From the IMG/VR virus record IMGVR_UViG_3300023117_000052, positions 1-34,370 of that record: 34,370 bases of DNA. The stretch is one strand, 5' to 3'. Numbering within the stretch: position 1 is the stretch's first letter; every line of letters begins with the position of its first letter. The notes beneath the pieces are model-generated. The model did not search any database, was not told the DNA's origin, and saw only the letters and a program-made list of their open reading frames with translations. A program made the translations under genes and the position numbers. The stretch is from a virus. Shown here in pieces: positions 5,138 through 11,392 of the stretch.

Positions 5138-5328
5138 TATTTAAAGATGGAAAGCCATTGGCTATAAAGTCGCCTAAGTGGAATGACTTGCACTCATATC
5201 ACAGTCTTAGTGATGAGGAGAGGAGACAATTAATTAGGAAGGATTTATTCGAGTATAAACTTCAAGAGGAGCAAGATGACATTTATTTTAATAATTTAAA
5301 AAAAAGACTAAATGGAATACGGCAGTAA
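5125..5328 (+). CDS. Small charged hypothetical protein, 67 aa
   Basis: I chose ATG 5125 (MDTIIFKDGKPLAIK...) because an upstream in-frame ATG at 5083 would run through the hairpin. The product is charged and helical, with LSDEERRQLIRKDLFEYKLQEEQDD, and has no membrane segment. The family is not recognised. Its end overlaps the next gene by 17 bases, indicating translational coupling. Confidence 0.55.
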   Translation: MDTIIFKDGKPLAIKSPKWNDLHSYHSLSDEERRQLIRKDLFEYKLQEEQDDIYFNNLKKRLNGIRQ

Positions 5329-5950
5329 ATGCACGGCAAAGGGATGCCGCAACGTACATTATGCTCTTGGTTTTTGTAAAAAGCATTACGCAGAAATAAG
5401 GCACTATGGGCATTTAAAAAATGACCCAACTTGTGTAGTATCTGATGACCGTCCAAAATGTAAGGCAGATGGTTGCGAGCGTTTAAAATATGCTAAGGGG
5501 TATTGTATGAAGCATTATCAGAGGGTTAGATTGTATGGCCATATTAATTATAGCCGAAAAGCGCATAAAAAAAGAACTGCAACTTTTATTAAATGTAAGA
5601 CTAAGGGGTGTAAAAATAATAATTATATCAAAGGTTATTGTAAGAAGCATTGCGTGGACGTAATACCTGAAAATACAATTTATGTAAGTAAGAATAAAAA
5701 TGGGATTGGGGAATTAGATATAGAAGTAAAAGGATGTTTTGTCAAATATACAAATGGAGGTTTATTTAAGGACGATACTGGTAATTATTGGATGCGGATG
5801 GATAATGGCATATACAAAATTATTGACTTAGTAGTAAGGGATAAGAAAGCTAAAATATTTGAATCAACAGACATTTTATCACACGAGAAAAGGGTTGCTT
5901 ACGACAAGTATATTCCTAAGATTTATTCAACAAAATCATTAAGGCAATGA
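5312..5950 (+). CDS. Triple zinc-knuckle (CCCH) protein, 212 aa
   Basis: Three N-terminal repeats of C-x4-C-x10-C-x2-H are visible at about residues 7-26, 50-69 and 94-113 (for example GFCKKHY, GYCMKHY, GYCKKHC), the first two followed by a basic YGH patch. Similar knuckles precede HNH nucleases and DNA-binding domains in other phages. The C-terminal ~90 residues (GELDIEVKGCFVKYTNGG...YWMRMDNGIYKI) lack a recognisable HNH signature and resemble a small beta-rich domain. Probably nucleic-acid binding; catalytic activity cannot be claimed. AT-rich compared with nearby structural genes. Confidence 0.55.
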   Translation: MEYGSKCTAKGCRNVHYALGFCKKHYAEIRHYGHLKNDPTCVVSDDRPKCKADGCERLKYAKGYCMKHYQRVRLYGHINYSRKAHKKRTATFIKCKTKGCKNNNYIKGYCKKHCVDVIPENTIYVSKNKNGIGELDIEVKGCFVKYTNGGLFKDDTGNYWMRMDNGIYKIIDLVVRDKKAKIFESTDILSHEKRVAYDKYIPKIYSTKSLRQ

Positions 5951-6839: not shown

Positions 6840-8183
6840 ATGGATAAAGCAAAAACAGAAGGAATACGATTTGTGGAGAGGTCATTACTTGGGACGCTTG
6901 TTCTGAAGCCATCGCTTTACATAAACAATGAGAAGATTTTGTCTATTGCGTTATTCTCATCAGAAAAAAACAGGAAGCTATTTAAGATAATTACCGACTT
7001 GTATAGTAAAGATGAGGAAATAGATTACAATTTGTTAAGCAACCGAGTAGCGCAGGACATAGGCATAGATTATAAGACGCTGGATAGTAACTACCTTGCA
7101 ATGGCAGACTCGTCAAAATTTGACGATTACTTAAAAGAGGTGGTAGAGTATTCCAAGAAAAGCACATTAAGTAAGGCAATAACAGAGGCGAAGGATGGAC
7201 TGTTGGCAGATGAGCCAAGTGATATTATTAAAGCAAGGCTAATGACATCTCTTCAGGATAATGAAATAGAAGATGCTCAAACATTTCACGTATCAGAGTA
7301 CATTAAAGATACGATGGATAGCGTTTACAAGGCCATGAAGTCTAATGGGTTGAGTGGAATAACTACTGGCATAACTAAGTTAAATGAGAGGAACGGGGGT
7401 TGGCAGGGTGGTGATGTTACAATTATAGCGGCACGAGCTGGGCTTGGTAAAACGACTATGGCAATGAATTTGGCATTAACGGCAGCGAGAGAAGGCAACC
7501 CAGTAGCAGTATTTAGTCTTGAGATGGGTGGAGAGCAACTATTGTTATTGTTGGCGGAGATAATAACTGGCGTAGAGACGGAAGACATAAGGGGAGGAAG
7601 AATAAACGAAGACCAAGTAAAAGCGATTGAGGAGGCTATGACTGAGGTTACTAAATTGCCTTTATTTTTAATTGGTGGCGCAAGACCGATAGAGGAAATA
7701 ATTACAAAAATTAGATTTTTGAATAAGAGGGTAAACCTTAAAATGGTGCTTGTTGATTATCTCCAGCTCATACAAAGTGGCAAAAGAATGAGTAATAGGA
7801 ATGCCGAAGTTGAACACGTTTCAAGGCAACTCAAATTAATTGCTATGCCTAATGAGTGTAATTTATCTATGATAGTATTAAGCCAGTTAAATAGAGGTTT
7901 AGAATCGAGAGCCGATAAAAGACCTATGTTATCAGACTTAAGGGATTCGGGAGCAATAGAGCAGGATGCAGATATGGTGTTGATGTTATACCGTGAAAAT
8001 TACTACGACCATGAATGCACGGACAATACAACGGAATTGGCGGTTATGAAGAATAGGTTTGGCAAGACGGGAGTAATAAGGCTTACTTACGTTAGCCGCA
8101 AGTATGTAGATTGGGAGGGAGATATAAACCAAAACTATGACCCTGATAGATATACGGAGTCAGGTGAAGATATACCATTTTAA
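6840..8183 (+). CDS. dnaB: Replicative DNA helicase, DnaB family
   Basis: The 447 aa length is usual for DnaB. Residues ~1-140 are the N-terminal helical domain; the RecA-like core has Walker A ARAGLGKT (198-205), FSLEMG, Walker B VLVDYLQL (303-310) and SQLNRGLESRADKRP...LRDSGAIEQDAD. It would unwind DNA at the phage fork, loaded at the origin within the preceding gene. The C-terminus ESGEDIPF resembles an SSB tail tip, which is unusual for a helicase. The AT-rich IbrAB-like cassette follows. Confidence 0.93.
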   Translation: MDKAKTEGIRFVERSLLGTLVLKPSLYINNEKILSIALFSSEKNRKLFKIITDLYSKDEEIDYNLLSNRVAQDIGIDYKTLDSNYLAMADSSKFDDYLKEVVEYSKKSTLSKAITEAKDGLLADEPSDIIKARLMTSLQDNEIEDAQTFHVSEYIKDTMDSVYKAMKSNGLSGITTGITKLNERNGGWQGGDVTIIAARAGLGKTTMAMNLALTAAREGNPVAVFSLEMGGEQLLLLLAEIITGVETEDIRGGRINEDQVKAIEEAMTEVTKLPLFLIGGARPIEEIITKIRFLNKRVNLKMVLVDYLQLIQSGKRMSNRNAEVEHVSRQLKLIAMPNECNLSMIVLSQLNRGLESRADKRPMLSDLRDSGAIEQDADMVLMLYRENYYDHECTDNTTELAVMKNRFGKTGVIRLTYVSRKYVDWEGDINQNYDPDRYTESGEDIPF

Positions 8184-8243
8184 TTAGTGTATATTTTTTT
8201 TATAAAAACAAAACACTTATTTTTAAATAAAAATACAAATGCA

Positions 8244-9374
8244 ATGAACGAAACAAAAGAAATGATTTTATGTGATTTATCTAAATGTTGTGACTTTGAT
8301 TCTAAAGTGGATTACATTAATAATCTTAGGAAGTTTTTACATGAAAATTCTCCTTTTAAGGACAATCCTGTCGATTATGTTGAATGGGTAAAGTCAGAGA
8401 GGGTTGTTGCTAATGATTATAATCCAAATAAGGTAGCACCACCAGAAATGCAACTTTTAGAGGTGTCTATTGTGAATGATGGGTATACTCAACCGATTGT
8501 AACTTTTCCTCAAGATGATAAAATTGAAGTAGTCGATGGTTTTCACCGTTCAAGGGTAGGTAAAGAATCAATAATAGTGAAAGACAGAGTTAAAGGATAT
8601 TTGCCAATAGTAGGAATTCGAAAAGAGAAGCAAGGCAAAAAAGAAAGGATTGCTTCAACAATTAGGCACAACAGAGCAAGAGGAAAACATCAAGTATCTG
8701 CCATGTCTGAAATAGTTATAGAGTTAAAAAATAGAAATTGGGCAAACAAAAGGATTGCAAGAGAATTGGGGATGGATGAAGATGAGATTTTAAGACTATG
8801 TCAAGTGTCTGGATTAGAGGGGATGTTTCAAGACAAAGATTTTAATAAAGCGTGGGTTGTTCAAGGGTATGCCAATGAAGAATATGATGAAATAACAGAT
8901 GATATTGATGAAGAAGATTTTGATTTAGTTAGAATACCAAAAGAGAGTGATGAAAATAGGATATATCACACATTTGATAAGTGGGAGGCAGTCGATTATG
9001 GTTTTTTTGAAGAGTCTCATAAAACATTAACTCCTATTCAATGTGAATATAAATACAAAGAACTGCTTACTAATTTAAGTGAATTTGAAAGAATTTTGGA
9101 TAAAGTATTGAATGAATGGAAGTATAGTTGTGAACACAATTTGACTAACAGTTCTATGAATAGAATTGCGTGGTTAGGTCAGGCTGCGGTCTGCTACAAG
9201 TACAATGTTCCTTCTAAATATTCAGGCGGTTGGTCTTTATTGACAAAAGATGAGCAAAAAGCAGCTAATTTAATTGCGTTTAAATATTTAAATAAGTGGT
9301 TATTGTCTATGAATATGAGTGAACTTGATTTAAGTGATGCAATTCAAGAAGATAGACAAGTGGAATTATATTAA
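8244..9374 (+). CDS. IbrB-like ParB-domain protein, 376 aa
   Basis: Residues ~52-102 form a ParB/sulfiredoxin-type fold (NPNKVAPPEMQLLEVSI...QPIVTF...VVDGFHR). Residues ~139-150 are the basic segment RHNRARGKHQ, and ~165-200 a helix-turn-helix (NKRIARELGMDEDEILRL). After an acidic linker, a C-terminal domain contains CEHNLTNSSMNRIAWLGQAA and W-rich segments that I associate with IbrB-like phage proteins. IbrB works with IbrA, encoded 13 bases downstream, in a pair named for control of immunoglobulin-binding proteins in E. coli; the biochemistry is unresolved. An upstream GTG at 8187 was not used because its extension looks like leader. Markedly AT-rich. Confidence 0.75.
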   Translation: MNETKEMILCDLSKCCDFDSKVDYINNLRKFLHENSPFKDNPVDYVEWVKSERVVANDYNPNKVAPPEMQLLEVSIVNDGYTQPIVTFPQDDKIEVVDGFHRSRVGKESIIVKDRVKGYLPIVGIRKEKQGKKERIASTIRHNRARGKHQVSAMSEIVIELKNRNWANKRIARELGMDEDEILRLCQVSGLEGMFQDKDFNKAWVVQGYANEEYDEITDDIDEEDFDLVRIPKESDENRIYHTFDKWEAVDYGFFEESHKTLTPIQCEYKYKELLTNLSEFERILDKVLNEWKYSCEHNLTNSSMNRIAWLGQAAVCYKYNVPSKYSGGWSLLTKDEQKAANLIAFKYLNKWLLSMNMSELDLSDAIQEDRQVELY

Positions 9375-9387
9375 TAAAAAAAATAGC

Positions 9388-10635
9388 ATGAAAAAATATA
9401 TTAATAAAAGCGTATTAAAGGCATCTCAAGAAAGAATATCTTCAGTTTTTGATGATTTTGAAAAAATTTATGTATCGTTTAGTGGAGGCAAAGACAGTAC
9501 GGTAATGCTACATTTGGTAATGTCTGAAGCTATTAAGAGAAACAGAAAAGTCGGTGTTTTAATAATAGATTTAGAGGCTCAATATTCGGACACTATAACC
9601 CATATAAATAATTGTATTGATTTGTATGAATCGCACATTGACCTTCATTGGTTTTGTGGGGAATTGTTACTTAGAAATGCGGTTTCCAATTTTGAGCCAA
9701 AATGGGTTTGTTGGGATGAAGATAAAAAGGATTTATGGGTTCGTGAAAAACCATCAAGGTCTTCTGATTTGTCTCAATATGATTTTTATATTCCTAAAAT
9801 GGAATTTGAAGAGTTGATGGTTATATTTGGCGATTGGTATTCTGAGGGTAAAAAAACTGCTGCATTTATTGGCATAAGGTCAGATGAATCTTTACACAGA
9901 TATAGAGCAATAGTTTCTGAAAAAAATGGACTAATGCACAATGGATTTAGGTGGACAACAAAAGTTTCGTCATCACTTTATAATGCGTATCCCTTATATG
10001 ATTGGAAAACTGAAGACGTTTGGGTTTATTTGGGTAAAAACAAACATTTGCCATCAAATCCAATTTATTCAAAAATGTCATTAGCGGGAGTTCCAATTTC
10101 TTCTCAAAGATTGTGTCAACCGTATGGAGATGACCAGAAAAAGGGCTTATGGCTTTATCACTTGTTAGAACCAGATACTTGGAGTAAGCTATTGGCTCGT
10201 GTTTCTGGTGTAAATAGCGGTGCATTATATGTCAATGAGTCTGGTTCTATAAATGGCAACAGATTTGTTACAAAACCAGAAAATATGAGTTGGCAAGAGT
10301 ATACTAATTTTTTATTATCTACAATGCCAAAAATTACTCAAGATAATTACAAGTTAAGATTTAAGAAATTTATAGTTGGTTGGAAAAAAAGAGGATATGA
10401 TAAAATACCTGACGAGGCTCCACACAATTTAGAGGTTAAATGTTGGGCTCCTTCATGGAAGAGGATGTCTCGTTGCATATTAAGAAACGATTTTTACTGC
10501 AAAGGTCTTGGACAAACACAACCAAAGTCAGAGGCATATGAAAAGTTTAAATCAATAAAATATAATAATAAATTAAAAGAAAAGATAAAAAAAGACAATC
10601 AAGTAGATTCGGCAATTCAATTAGAAATAACATAA
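9388..10635 (+). CDS. IbrA-like PAPS-reductase-family protein (DUF3440 type), 415 aa
   Basis: The PP-loop YVSFSGGKDSTVM (residues ~28-40) marks the PAPS reductase/ATP pyrophosphatase fold. The signatures GIRSDESLHRYRAI and YPLYDWKTEDVWVY are those of IbrA/DUF3440 proteins. C-terminal cysteines (RLCQPYG, KCWAPSW, RCILRNDFYCKG) could bind metal or sulfur. Sulfonucleotide or nucleotide-dependent sulfur chemistry is possible, as in the DndC relatives, but the substrate is unknown. It pairs with the upstream ParB-like gene. ATG 9388 was chosen over 9334, which would overlap that gene by 41 bases. AT-rich (14 G/C of 60 at 10321-10380). Confidence 0.8.
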   Translation: MKKYINKSVLKASQERISSVFDDFEKIYVSFSGGKDSTVMLHLVMSEAIKRNRKVGVLIIDLEAQYSDTITHINNCIDLYESHIDLHWFCGELLLRNAVSNFEPKWVCWDEDKKDLWVREKPSRSSDLSQYDFYIPKMEFEELMVIFGDWYSEGKKTAAFIGIRSDESLHRYRAIVSEKNGLMHNGFRWTTKVSSSLYNAYPLYDWKTEDVWVYLGKNKHLPSNPIYSKMSLAGVPISSQRLCQPYGDDQKKGLWLYHLLEPDTWSKLLARVSGVNSGALYVNESGSINGNRFVTKPENMSWQEYTNFLLSTMPKITQDNYKLRFKKFIVGWKKRGYDKIPDEAPHNLEVKCWAPSWKRMSRCILRNDFYCKGLGQTQPKSEAYEKFKSIKYNNKLKEKIKKDNQVDSAIQLEIT

Positions 10636-10647
10636 AATACCATTTTT

Positions 10648-10734
10648 ATGACATCCGTTATTATTAACTACGGAGCAAGTGGCATTGTCCTAAACGTAGG
10701 CAGTGCTGCTTTTAAAAAAGAAGATGAACCCTAA
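10648..10734 (+). CDS. Possible 28-aa peptide overlapping the ninG start
   Basis: The ATG at 10648 opens a 28-codon frame (MTSVIINYGASGIVLNVG...) ending at 10734, which overlaps the next gene by 11 bases. It is hydrophobic, then charged. The same DNA forms a long hairpin, so coding and RNA structure compete as explanations. Confidence 0.3.
   Translation: MTSVIINYGASGIVLNVGSAAFKKEDEP
10677..10711 (+). terminator. Long hairpin directly upstream of ninG
   Basis: Arms 10677-10687 and 10701-10711 pair over 11 bp (including G-T pairs). After one bulged T (10688), CCTA (10689-10692) pairs with TAGG (10697-10700) around the loop AACG. Only a few T follow, then an A run and the ATG at 10724. It may end transcription of the IbrAB cassette or act as a translational leader for ninG. 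Confidence 0.5.
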
Positions 10735-11392
10735 GAAGATAAAGACATATACTTGCCGAATTTGTAAGTCTAAGTACGAAAGGATGATGGGGCAGACGTA
10801 TATTAAGTGGTGTTCTGATAAATGTCAAGATGCTTACATAAAAAAAACAGTAGAGAAGGTAAGAGAGGAGCAAAAAAGAAAAAAGCGTAAAGAGTGGCGA
10901 GAGCAAAAGCAAAAGTATAGAGCAGAGTTAGGAATAAGTGTAGACCATTTGCAGAAGGCTATAAATAAGATAGTCAGGAAACTGGATGAGAATGAGCCTT
11001 GTATAGTGTTTCCAGCATTGCCAATAGACCCATCCACGAAACAGGCGGGGCATAGCTTTAGTAGGTCAAGGAAACCACATTTGAAGTATCTTTTGTTAAA
11101 TATACATGGGGAGTCGGAAAGGAGCAACGGAGACCAAAACATAACAGATGAGGTGCGTGTAAGGGCAGTAGCTGACAGGTATGGCGATGAGGTATTAGAG
11201 TGGTTATATTGGGCAGATACGCATAACAGACCACTGAAGCTAACGCAACAGGATAAGAACGAAGCTATTAAAGAAGCAAGAAAGATACATAGGGAGTTAG
11301 AGCAAGGCGCAGAATATACAAGGTCTTATATTGACGCAAGACTGCGGTTATATAAGCTACCTGAAGACTATTTAAAACAAAATAAGATATAA
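10724..11392 (+). CDS. ninG: NinG/Rap-like recombination nuclease, 222 aa
   Basis: An N-terminal zinc knuckle (CRICKSKYERM...WCSDKC) is followed by a basic coiled region (EEQKRKKRKEWREQKQK) and the NinG core (LQKAINKIVRKLDENEPC...QAGHSFSRSRKPHLKYL...NIHG). Lambda NinG (Rap) assists recombination by processing branched DNA. The second zinc site is degenerate: the usual CISC reads CIVF and the CxxCN after HG reads ESERSN. ATG 10724 was chosen over 10703, which lies in the hairpin tail. Its place after helicase genes matches the lambda-like nin position. Confidence 0.75.
   Translation: MNPKKIKTYTCRICKSKYERMMGQTYIKWCSDKCQDAYIKKTVEKVREEQKRKKRKEWREQKQKYRAELGISVDHLQKAINKIVRKLDENEPCIVFPALPIDPSTKQAGHSFSRSRKPHLKYLLLNIHGESERSNGDQNITDEVRVRAVADRYGDEVLEWLYWADTHNRPLKLTQQDKNEAIKEARKIHRELEQGAEYTRSYIDARLRLYKLPEDYLKQNKI

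Follow-up and report, generated by a model that had tools for sequence, protein, structure and literature searches.

A phage-borne ibrB-ibrA cassette with a separable third component occupies a swappable slot between dnaB and ninG and may encode a DNA-targeting modification complex

The window analysed here is a 34,370-bp virus record of IMG/VR with a phage gene order, which runs from an exonuclease subunit, a YqaJ-type exonuclease, an SSB-like protein, a replication initiator and a DnaB-like helicase through a two-gene cassette to NinG, the small and large terminases, the portal, virion proteins and the tape measure. Its large terminase is nearest to those of one faecal phage and two Flavobacterium phages (40-44% identity), and its host is probably a member of the Bacteroidota. 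The cassette consists of ibrB in a long form (8244..9374, + strand, 376 aa), where a ParB-type domain and an HTH are fused to a C-terminal helical domain, and ibrA (9388..10635, + strand, 415 aa), which encodes a PP-loop protein of the PAPS-reductase fold (SGGKDS, residues 32-37) with a DUF3440 extension. Both reading frames are intact, with GTG frames opening upstream at 8187 for ibrB and at 9334 for ibrA, and 13 bp separate the two genes. An earlier note on this DNA had described two adjacent AT-rich genes resembling E. coli IbrB/IbrA, and this description holds: both genes have the corresponding profile matches, the protein motifs it quoted are present in the translations, and its G+C counts (14, 14 and 26 of 60) are exact. 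The 2,467-bp cassette has a G+C content of 31.7%, against a mean of 38.2% (sd 1.3%, minimum 34.5%) in 541 stretches of cassette length taken elsewhere in the window, and ibrB (0.325) and ibrA (0.322) rank lowest when genes with 150 codons or more are compared, the other genes having a mean of 0.389 and a minimum of 0.335.

IbrA matches Pfam DUF3440 (PF11922) with E=3e-33 and 115.4 bits (cut-off 25), PAPS_reduct with E=3e-18 and 66.8 bits (cut-off 22.5) and phrog_2302 with E=2e-85. When its AF2 model (pTM 0.81, built from an alignment of 47 phage homologues) was searched with Foldseek, it matched CysH, CysD and FAD synthase, which share the PAPS-reductase/ATP-sulfurylase/FAD-synthase fold. Enzymes with a PP-loop and this fold use ATP to activate their substrate, and a cysteine frequently relays sulfur in them. 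The PP-loop GKDS is found in all 15 of 15 diverse IbrA sequences, with one variant carrying Ala for the first Gly, and D-x-E-A, G-x-R-x-x-E-S and YDW-like motifs are kept across the same set. Close relatives share four near-invariant cysteines (C90, C108, C243 and C371), among which only C371, within NDxxCKxLG, holds across the wider family (14/15 lineages); because of this a family-wide Fe-S cluster is unlikely. The conservation of C371 throughout the family, as judged from these alignments, appears to be a new point of this analysis.

Assignment of IbrA to a known enzyme family was not supported by the cut-offs of those families. IbrA scored 28.2 bits against the 290.4 required for DndC (TIGR03183) and 36 against the 154 of the CysH equivalog (NCBIfam), the CysD family cut-off was likewise missed widely, and its matches to DndC and BrxP in defence models stayed below family level. 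The C-terminal motif of CysH is ECGLH, and it is absent from the IbrA translation. These results bear on the possibility that ibrA is a viral cysH, an auxiliary metabolic gene for sulfur assimilation. The PAPS-reductase fold speaks for it, as does the PHROG class of the IbrA family, 'moron, auxiliary metabolic gene and host takeover'. With the failed equivalog cut-off, the missing ECGLH and a near-obligate ParB-fold partner on the other side, we consider it very improbable. Phage copies of IbrA have been reported as PAPS-reductase metabolic genes (PMC11318856), and it is routine for IbrA-type genes to be classed among auxiliary metabolic genes of the PAPS reductase kind (phrog_2302, phrog_424), a practice that may inflate reports of viral cysH. 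Modification of RNA or nucleotides, such as tRNA thiolation or altered dNTPs, which would change translation or the nucleotide pool during infection, has a slim chance as well: the fold is common to TtuA, NcsA and TilS/MesJ, but matches to these are weaker than to CysH, and both the ParB-HTH partner and the DNA-replication neighbourhood argue against it.

The N-terminal part of IbrB (residues 1-230; 8244..8933, + strand) is predicted to adopt a ParB/Noc/KorB fold with an HTH. IbrB matches the ParB-like family phrog_2159 with E=3.7e-66, while its 16 bits miss the Pfam ParB_N cut-off of 26.3, which a chromosome or plasmid partition ParB would be expected to reach. Thus the profile matches expected in the earlier note were obtained for DUF3440, PAPS_reduct and a ParB-like family, and failed for Pfam ParB_N itself. 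The motifs NPN, DGxTxP, DGfHR and RHNRARG are invariant in alignments made from 57 close homologues and from 15 diverse ones. A search of the full AF2 model (mean pLDDT 84.7, alignment of 57 phage homologues) with Foldseek returned Noc, KorB and ParB as best PDB matches, with probability 1.00 and all falling on the ParB part, so that IbrB is, by its predicted fold, a putative clamp-type DNA binder. The genes around ibrB are a DnaB-like gene, ibrA and ninG, and ibrA adjoins an IbrB-type gene in 107 of 109 related loci. With E=9e-7 the ParB region further resembles the N-terminal part of phrog_498, a family of DNA methyltransferases 633 positions long.

These folds also suit the main rival to the reading that we favour below, namely that the proteins regulate transcription without modifying DNA. 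IbrB would then be a KorB/Noc-like clamp and IbrA an ATP or PAPS sensor, together switching phage or host genes. In its favour, IbrA and IbrB are annotated as 'co-activators of prophage gene expression', KorB, which with Noc is the closest fold of IbrB, is a repressor, and the chromosomal E. coli pair ybdNM adjoins a LysR regulator (PMC9068703). However, the strict conservation of the PP-loop and C371 over sequences of ~30-40% identity implies catalysis beyond sensing, and the presence of the pair on 604 plasmids and in many unrelated phages does not suggest one fixed regulon. We regard regulation of this kind as somewhat unlikely, though a serious contender.

The remainder of IbrB, residues 237-376 (8952..9371, + strand), carries the motifs HTxxKWE, SCEHxLTN, NRIAWLGQA and RQxELY, and we named this extra C-terminal domain IbrC. 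The earlier note had mentioned an extra domain behind the ParB fold and HTH, and this was borne out (phrog_2159 at E=4e-66 for the ParB-like part, and a confident all-helical AF2 model for residues ~236-376); it is itself a third, separable component, which the note had overlooked. The domain forms a family of its own that matches nothing in Pfam, PHROG or the PDB, where a sequence-profile search gave chance-level matches only. IbrC is fused to IbrB in all 109 distinct viral loci examined, a sample biased by having been drawn from the best matches to the window. In seven other phages and phage-like contigs it is a standalone gene of ~115-170 aa within the ibrA/ibrB cluster: Microcystis phage Mwe-JY13, Pseudomonas phage Amjad_SA, Pseudoalteromonas phage XCL1123, Mycobacterium phage Gaia, the MAG contigs L244 and L245, and contig L246. 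The standalone versions match the IbrC HMM with E values of 4e-13 to 6e-55 and keep H-x4-WE-like, S-x-E and N-(R/H)-x-AW-(I/L/V)-G-(Q/H)-A motifs. That this virus-enriched component is joined to IbrB in one branch and stands alone in another suggests that IbrA, IbrB and IbrC act as one complex.

A pattern-limited scan found IbrC in 559 viral stretches and only six times within 84,980 prokaryote species genomes. One of those six is an IMG/VR record too (L081/L242), and three others adjoin phage-type replication or recombination genes. None of 72,556 plasmids carries IbrC, although 604 of them carry an IbrA relative, so by these counts IbrC appears nearly confined to viruses. Whole-record searches did not find it in the E. 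coli phage PhiR5_2, in Streptococcus, Lactobacillus, Fusobacterium, Flavobacterium and Bacillus carriers of IbrA, or in several others, which makes IbrC specific to a branch. Beside the standalone IbrC genes of L246, Gaia and XCL1123 there are also small proteins of 81-102 aa (L246:8347-8592, L253:8856-9146 and L254:8520-8828) that resemble approximately the last 75 conserved residues of IbrA (profile positions ~324-398), without C371. They represent a possible fourth component.

The surroundings of the cassette were compared with six viral contigs whose DnaB is 89-100% identical to the window copy. Contig L002 (DnaB 100%) comes from the same phage and has the cassette, and L166 is identical to the window but stops inside dnaB. 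In the four others, L162, L163, L164 and L165, ibrB and ibrA were not found. The comparison with these sister phages defines a cargo slot (8184..10651, no strand assigned) between the dnaB-like helicase gene on the left (6840..8183, + strand, DnaB named from its sequence, 89-97% identical in sister phages) and the ninG-like nuclease gene on the right (10724..11392, + strand, Pfam NinG E=7e-19, 92-94% identical). The slot is empty in L164 (DnaB 89%), where ~0.1 kb separates the dnaB stop from the NinG start, and in L163 and L165 (DnaB 96-97%) it holds an SF2 helicase, a MazG-like protein and an N6/N4 DNA methyltransferase; L162 has the same helicase start before the contig ends. In L165 a second methyltransferase, which matches the other half of phrog_498, and an AdoMet-decarboxylase-like gene are added. 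The latter (L165:4770-5039, Pfam E=2e-12) overlaps a DNA methyltransferase gene, and its product might act in SAM depletion or in a DNA modification linked to polyamines.

The cassette is bounded on the left within ~25 bp of the dnaB stop, and on the right it ends directly ahead of an intergenic element (10652..10720, + strand) that is conserved and has two predicted hairpins. This element precedes ninG in L163, L164 and L165 whatever the cargo, with the second methyltransferase and AdoMet-decarboxylase-like genes of L165 inserted between it and ninG, and 66 of 88 window bases are invariant in four phages. Its consensus fold has -18.2 kcal/mol, without compensatory changes; nothing in Rfam matched it up to E=1, and a known RNA element was rejected.

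The cassette thus appears to be swappable cargo between dnaB and ninG, the swap being seen in one slot of one phage group, and the simplest reading of the comparison is that the lineage of the window phage gained or swapped it. As to the recent gain proposed in the earlier note, close relatives lack both genes, which supports a gain by this lineage, whereas the composition on which the note had relied does not serve as its support. In their synonymous codons ibrB and ibrA resemble the rest of the phage (z of +1.2 and +1.7, neither below zero), and for this reason we rejected composition alone as proof of gain. The alternative cargo in sister phages is also AT-rich (G+C 0.27-0.34), so low G+C marks the cargo of this slot. 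A swappable slot that adjoins replication genes and is shared with methyltransferases would also suit counter-defence, where the complex leaves DNA unmarked and, by binding or inhibition, blocks or misleads a restriction, phosphorothioation or nucleotide-depletion system of the host, and the near confinement of IbrC to phages fits such a role. Plasmids commonly carry IbrA and IbrB without IbrC, chromosomes have them too, and the catalytic motifs are invariant, for which reasons we find counter-defence improbable.

Relatives of IbrA were found in 216 phage records and 604 plasmids, and the phage records with IbrB number 218, with near-identical host lists. In unrelated phages, 79 other loci encode an IbrA 64-78% and an IbrB 52-66% identical to those of the window. 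Forty-seven of the 79 share no other window gene within the fetched stretch, and those shared by the rest are common replication and recombination genes, mostly below 50% identity, from which it follows that ibrB-ibrA moves between phages. The occurrence of the pair in phages is known: it has been annotated in Flavobacterium phages (PMC4541368), glacier phages (PMC4490671) and Heimdallarchaeal viruses (PMC8813620), while IbrC, the cassette swap and the family-wide C371 are new here. A literature search whose scope left out preprints (bioRxiv included) and most subscription journals returned annotation and speculation only, with no paper on the biochemistry of the IbrA/IbrB pair and no description of IbrC, the IbrB-IbrC fusion or the methyltransferase swap. 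Across hundreds of phages and plasmids these proteins go by three labels that contradict one another: prophage co-activator, partition protein and sulfur metabolism.

Among known systems, E. coli IbrA/IbrB (YbdN/YbdM of K-12) likewise combine adjacent DUF3440 PAPS-reductase-fold and ParB-HTH genes; compared with the window, IbrA is 40% identical and the core of IbrB 52%. They differ in gene order, the window having ibrB first, and in being a two-component system with a short IbrB of ~200 aa; the window IbrB of 376 aa includes IbrC, which is encoded nowhere in the PhiR5_2 genome. Mwe-JY13 has the same three units in the same order, all conserved (IbrA 57% identity), but there IbrB and IbrC are separate genes. 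Its products are labelled ParB/sulfiredoxin, ParB/sulfiredoxin and PAPS sulfotransferase, the second ParB/sulfiredoxin label being given to an IbrC that matches no Pfam or PHROG family. DndC, SspD and BrxP with the ParB-like DndB resemble the cassette in pairing a PAPS-reductase fold with a ParB-superfamily partner (PMC10853773, PMC12839542), and the DUF3440 extension and IbrC are not known to have a counterpart in Dnd. DndD, DndE and a cysteine desulfurase were absent from the window ORFs searched, which are part of all its ORFs. The phrog_498 phage methyltransferases also couple a ParB-like N-terminal part to a DNA-modifying enzyme, with a methyltransferase where the window has a PP-loop enzyme.

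The reading that we favour, at a probability of about 0.42, is of a DNA-targeting modification complex that the phage encodes in this cassette. The intact PP-loop and predicted fold of IbrA are consistent with it, as are its below-family matches to DndC and BrxP, both of which act in DNA phosphorothioation, the modelled DNA-clamp fold of IbrB and the apparent kinship of its ParB region with the N-terminal part of phrog_498 methyltransferases. The cassette sits among replication and recombination genes, and in sister phages its slot seems to hold N6/N4 DNA methyltransferases with a helicase, or nothing, which makes DNA the first substrate candidate and suggests that the cassette may act on phage DNA. 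Overlaps with modification genes elsewhere point the same way: the IbrA gene of Bacillus phage 031MP004 directly overlaps a phrog_11826 methyltransferase gene, ibrA of Arthrobacter phage Laroye does so via an intervening ParB gene, and a ParB-like gene overlaps a queuine tRNA-ribosyltransferase gene in Fusobacterium phage phiFN37. The missed DndC, CysH and CysD cut-offs count against this reading, as do the absence of DndD, DndE and a cysteine desulfurase from the window ORFs searched and the restriction of the swap to one slot of one phage group. So does genetic work on E. coli ibrAB, the only such work on the pair known to us, which reportedly found transcriptional activation.

In such a modification complex IbrB would bind or load on phage DNA via its ParB-type domain and HTH and recruit IbrA, a PP-loop ATPase that would adenylate a DNA group or a donor and transfer an atom or group, possibly sulfur, via C371; transfer of sulfur would here need a host desulfurase. 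IbrC would be an obligate partner in its branch, either as a scaffold or as a relay of sulfur or substrate through its invariant Cys-Glu-His-Asn-Arg residues. The resulting mark could keep host nucleases away from the phage genome, or it could prevent a repressor from binding, and phage genes would then be expressed more strongly. A prophage was found to be activated when phosphorothioation weakened the binding of its repressor (PMC8569181), and hence a DNA mark could also explain the prophage co-activator label. If true, part of the literature on viral cysH as an auxiliary metabolic gene describes DNA modification or regulation and not sulfur assimilation. A bolder proposal, which we put forward tentatively and with less confidence, is that IbrA, IbrB and IbrC form a three-part modification machine unlike Dnd, Ssp and the methyltransferases, interchangeable with methyltransferase cargo and including many viral 'PAPS reductase' genes.

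If IbrBA stood in for DNA methyltransferases generally, records that carry it should contain fewer of them; such mutual exclusion across viral records was not supported, which counts against the modification reading. Any of three methyltransferase families occurred in 13/50 IbrBA records and 13/42 controls (26% vs 31%, p=0.65), and the N6_N4 family alone in 4/50 and 8/42 (p=0.13), in a weak test whose 42 controls were matched by terminase and not by host and whose records are unequally complete.

Other genes were noted near ibrA in several elements. In Lactobacillus, Streptococcus and Paenibacillus elements a SNF2-type helicase gene immediately precedes ibrA, with an overlap in the Lactobacillus and Paenibacillus cases, and in the Fusobacterium phage it lies downstream of IbrB; these helicases (L263:3833-5002, L264:3836-5005, L267:5599-7011 and L255:8153-9349) are homologous. 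Such a helicase is present in only 4/109 long-IbrB loci, and we rejected it as a fixed fourth partner. The ParB-like/queuine-transferase locus of phiFN37 (L255:10745-13054) includes a queuosine precursor transporter too and lies 3 kb from IbrAB. In an archaeal plasmid of Natrinema, IbrA and IbrB are immediately followed by another PP-loop protein, which is divergent (L269:8904-9809, IbrA HMM E=2e-9). In the window itself, the product of 5312-5950 has three tandem Cys/His repeats (e.g. CTAKGCRNVHYALGFCKKHY) and matches phage HNH-family profiles, and may be a zinc-binding DNA protein.
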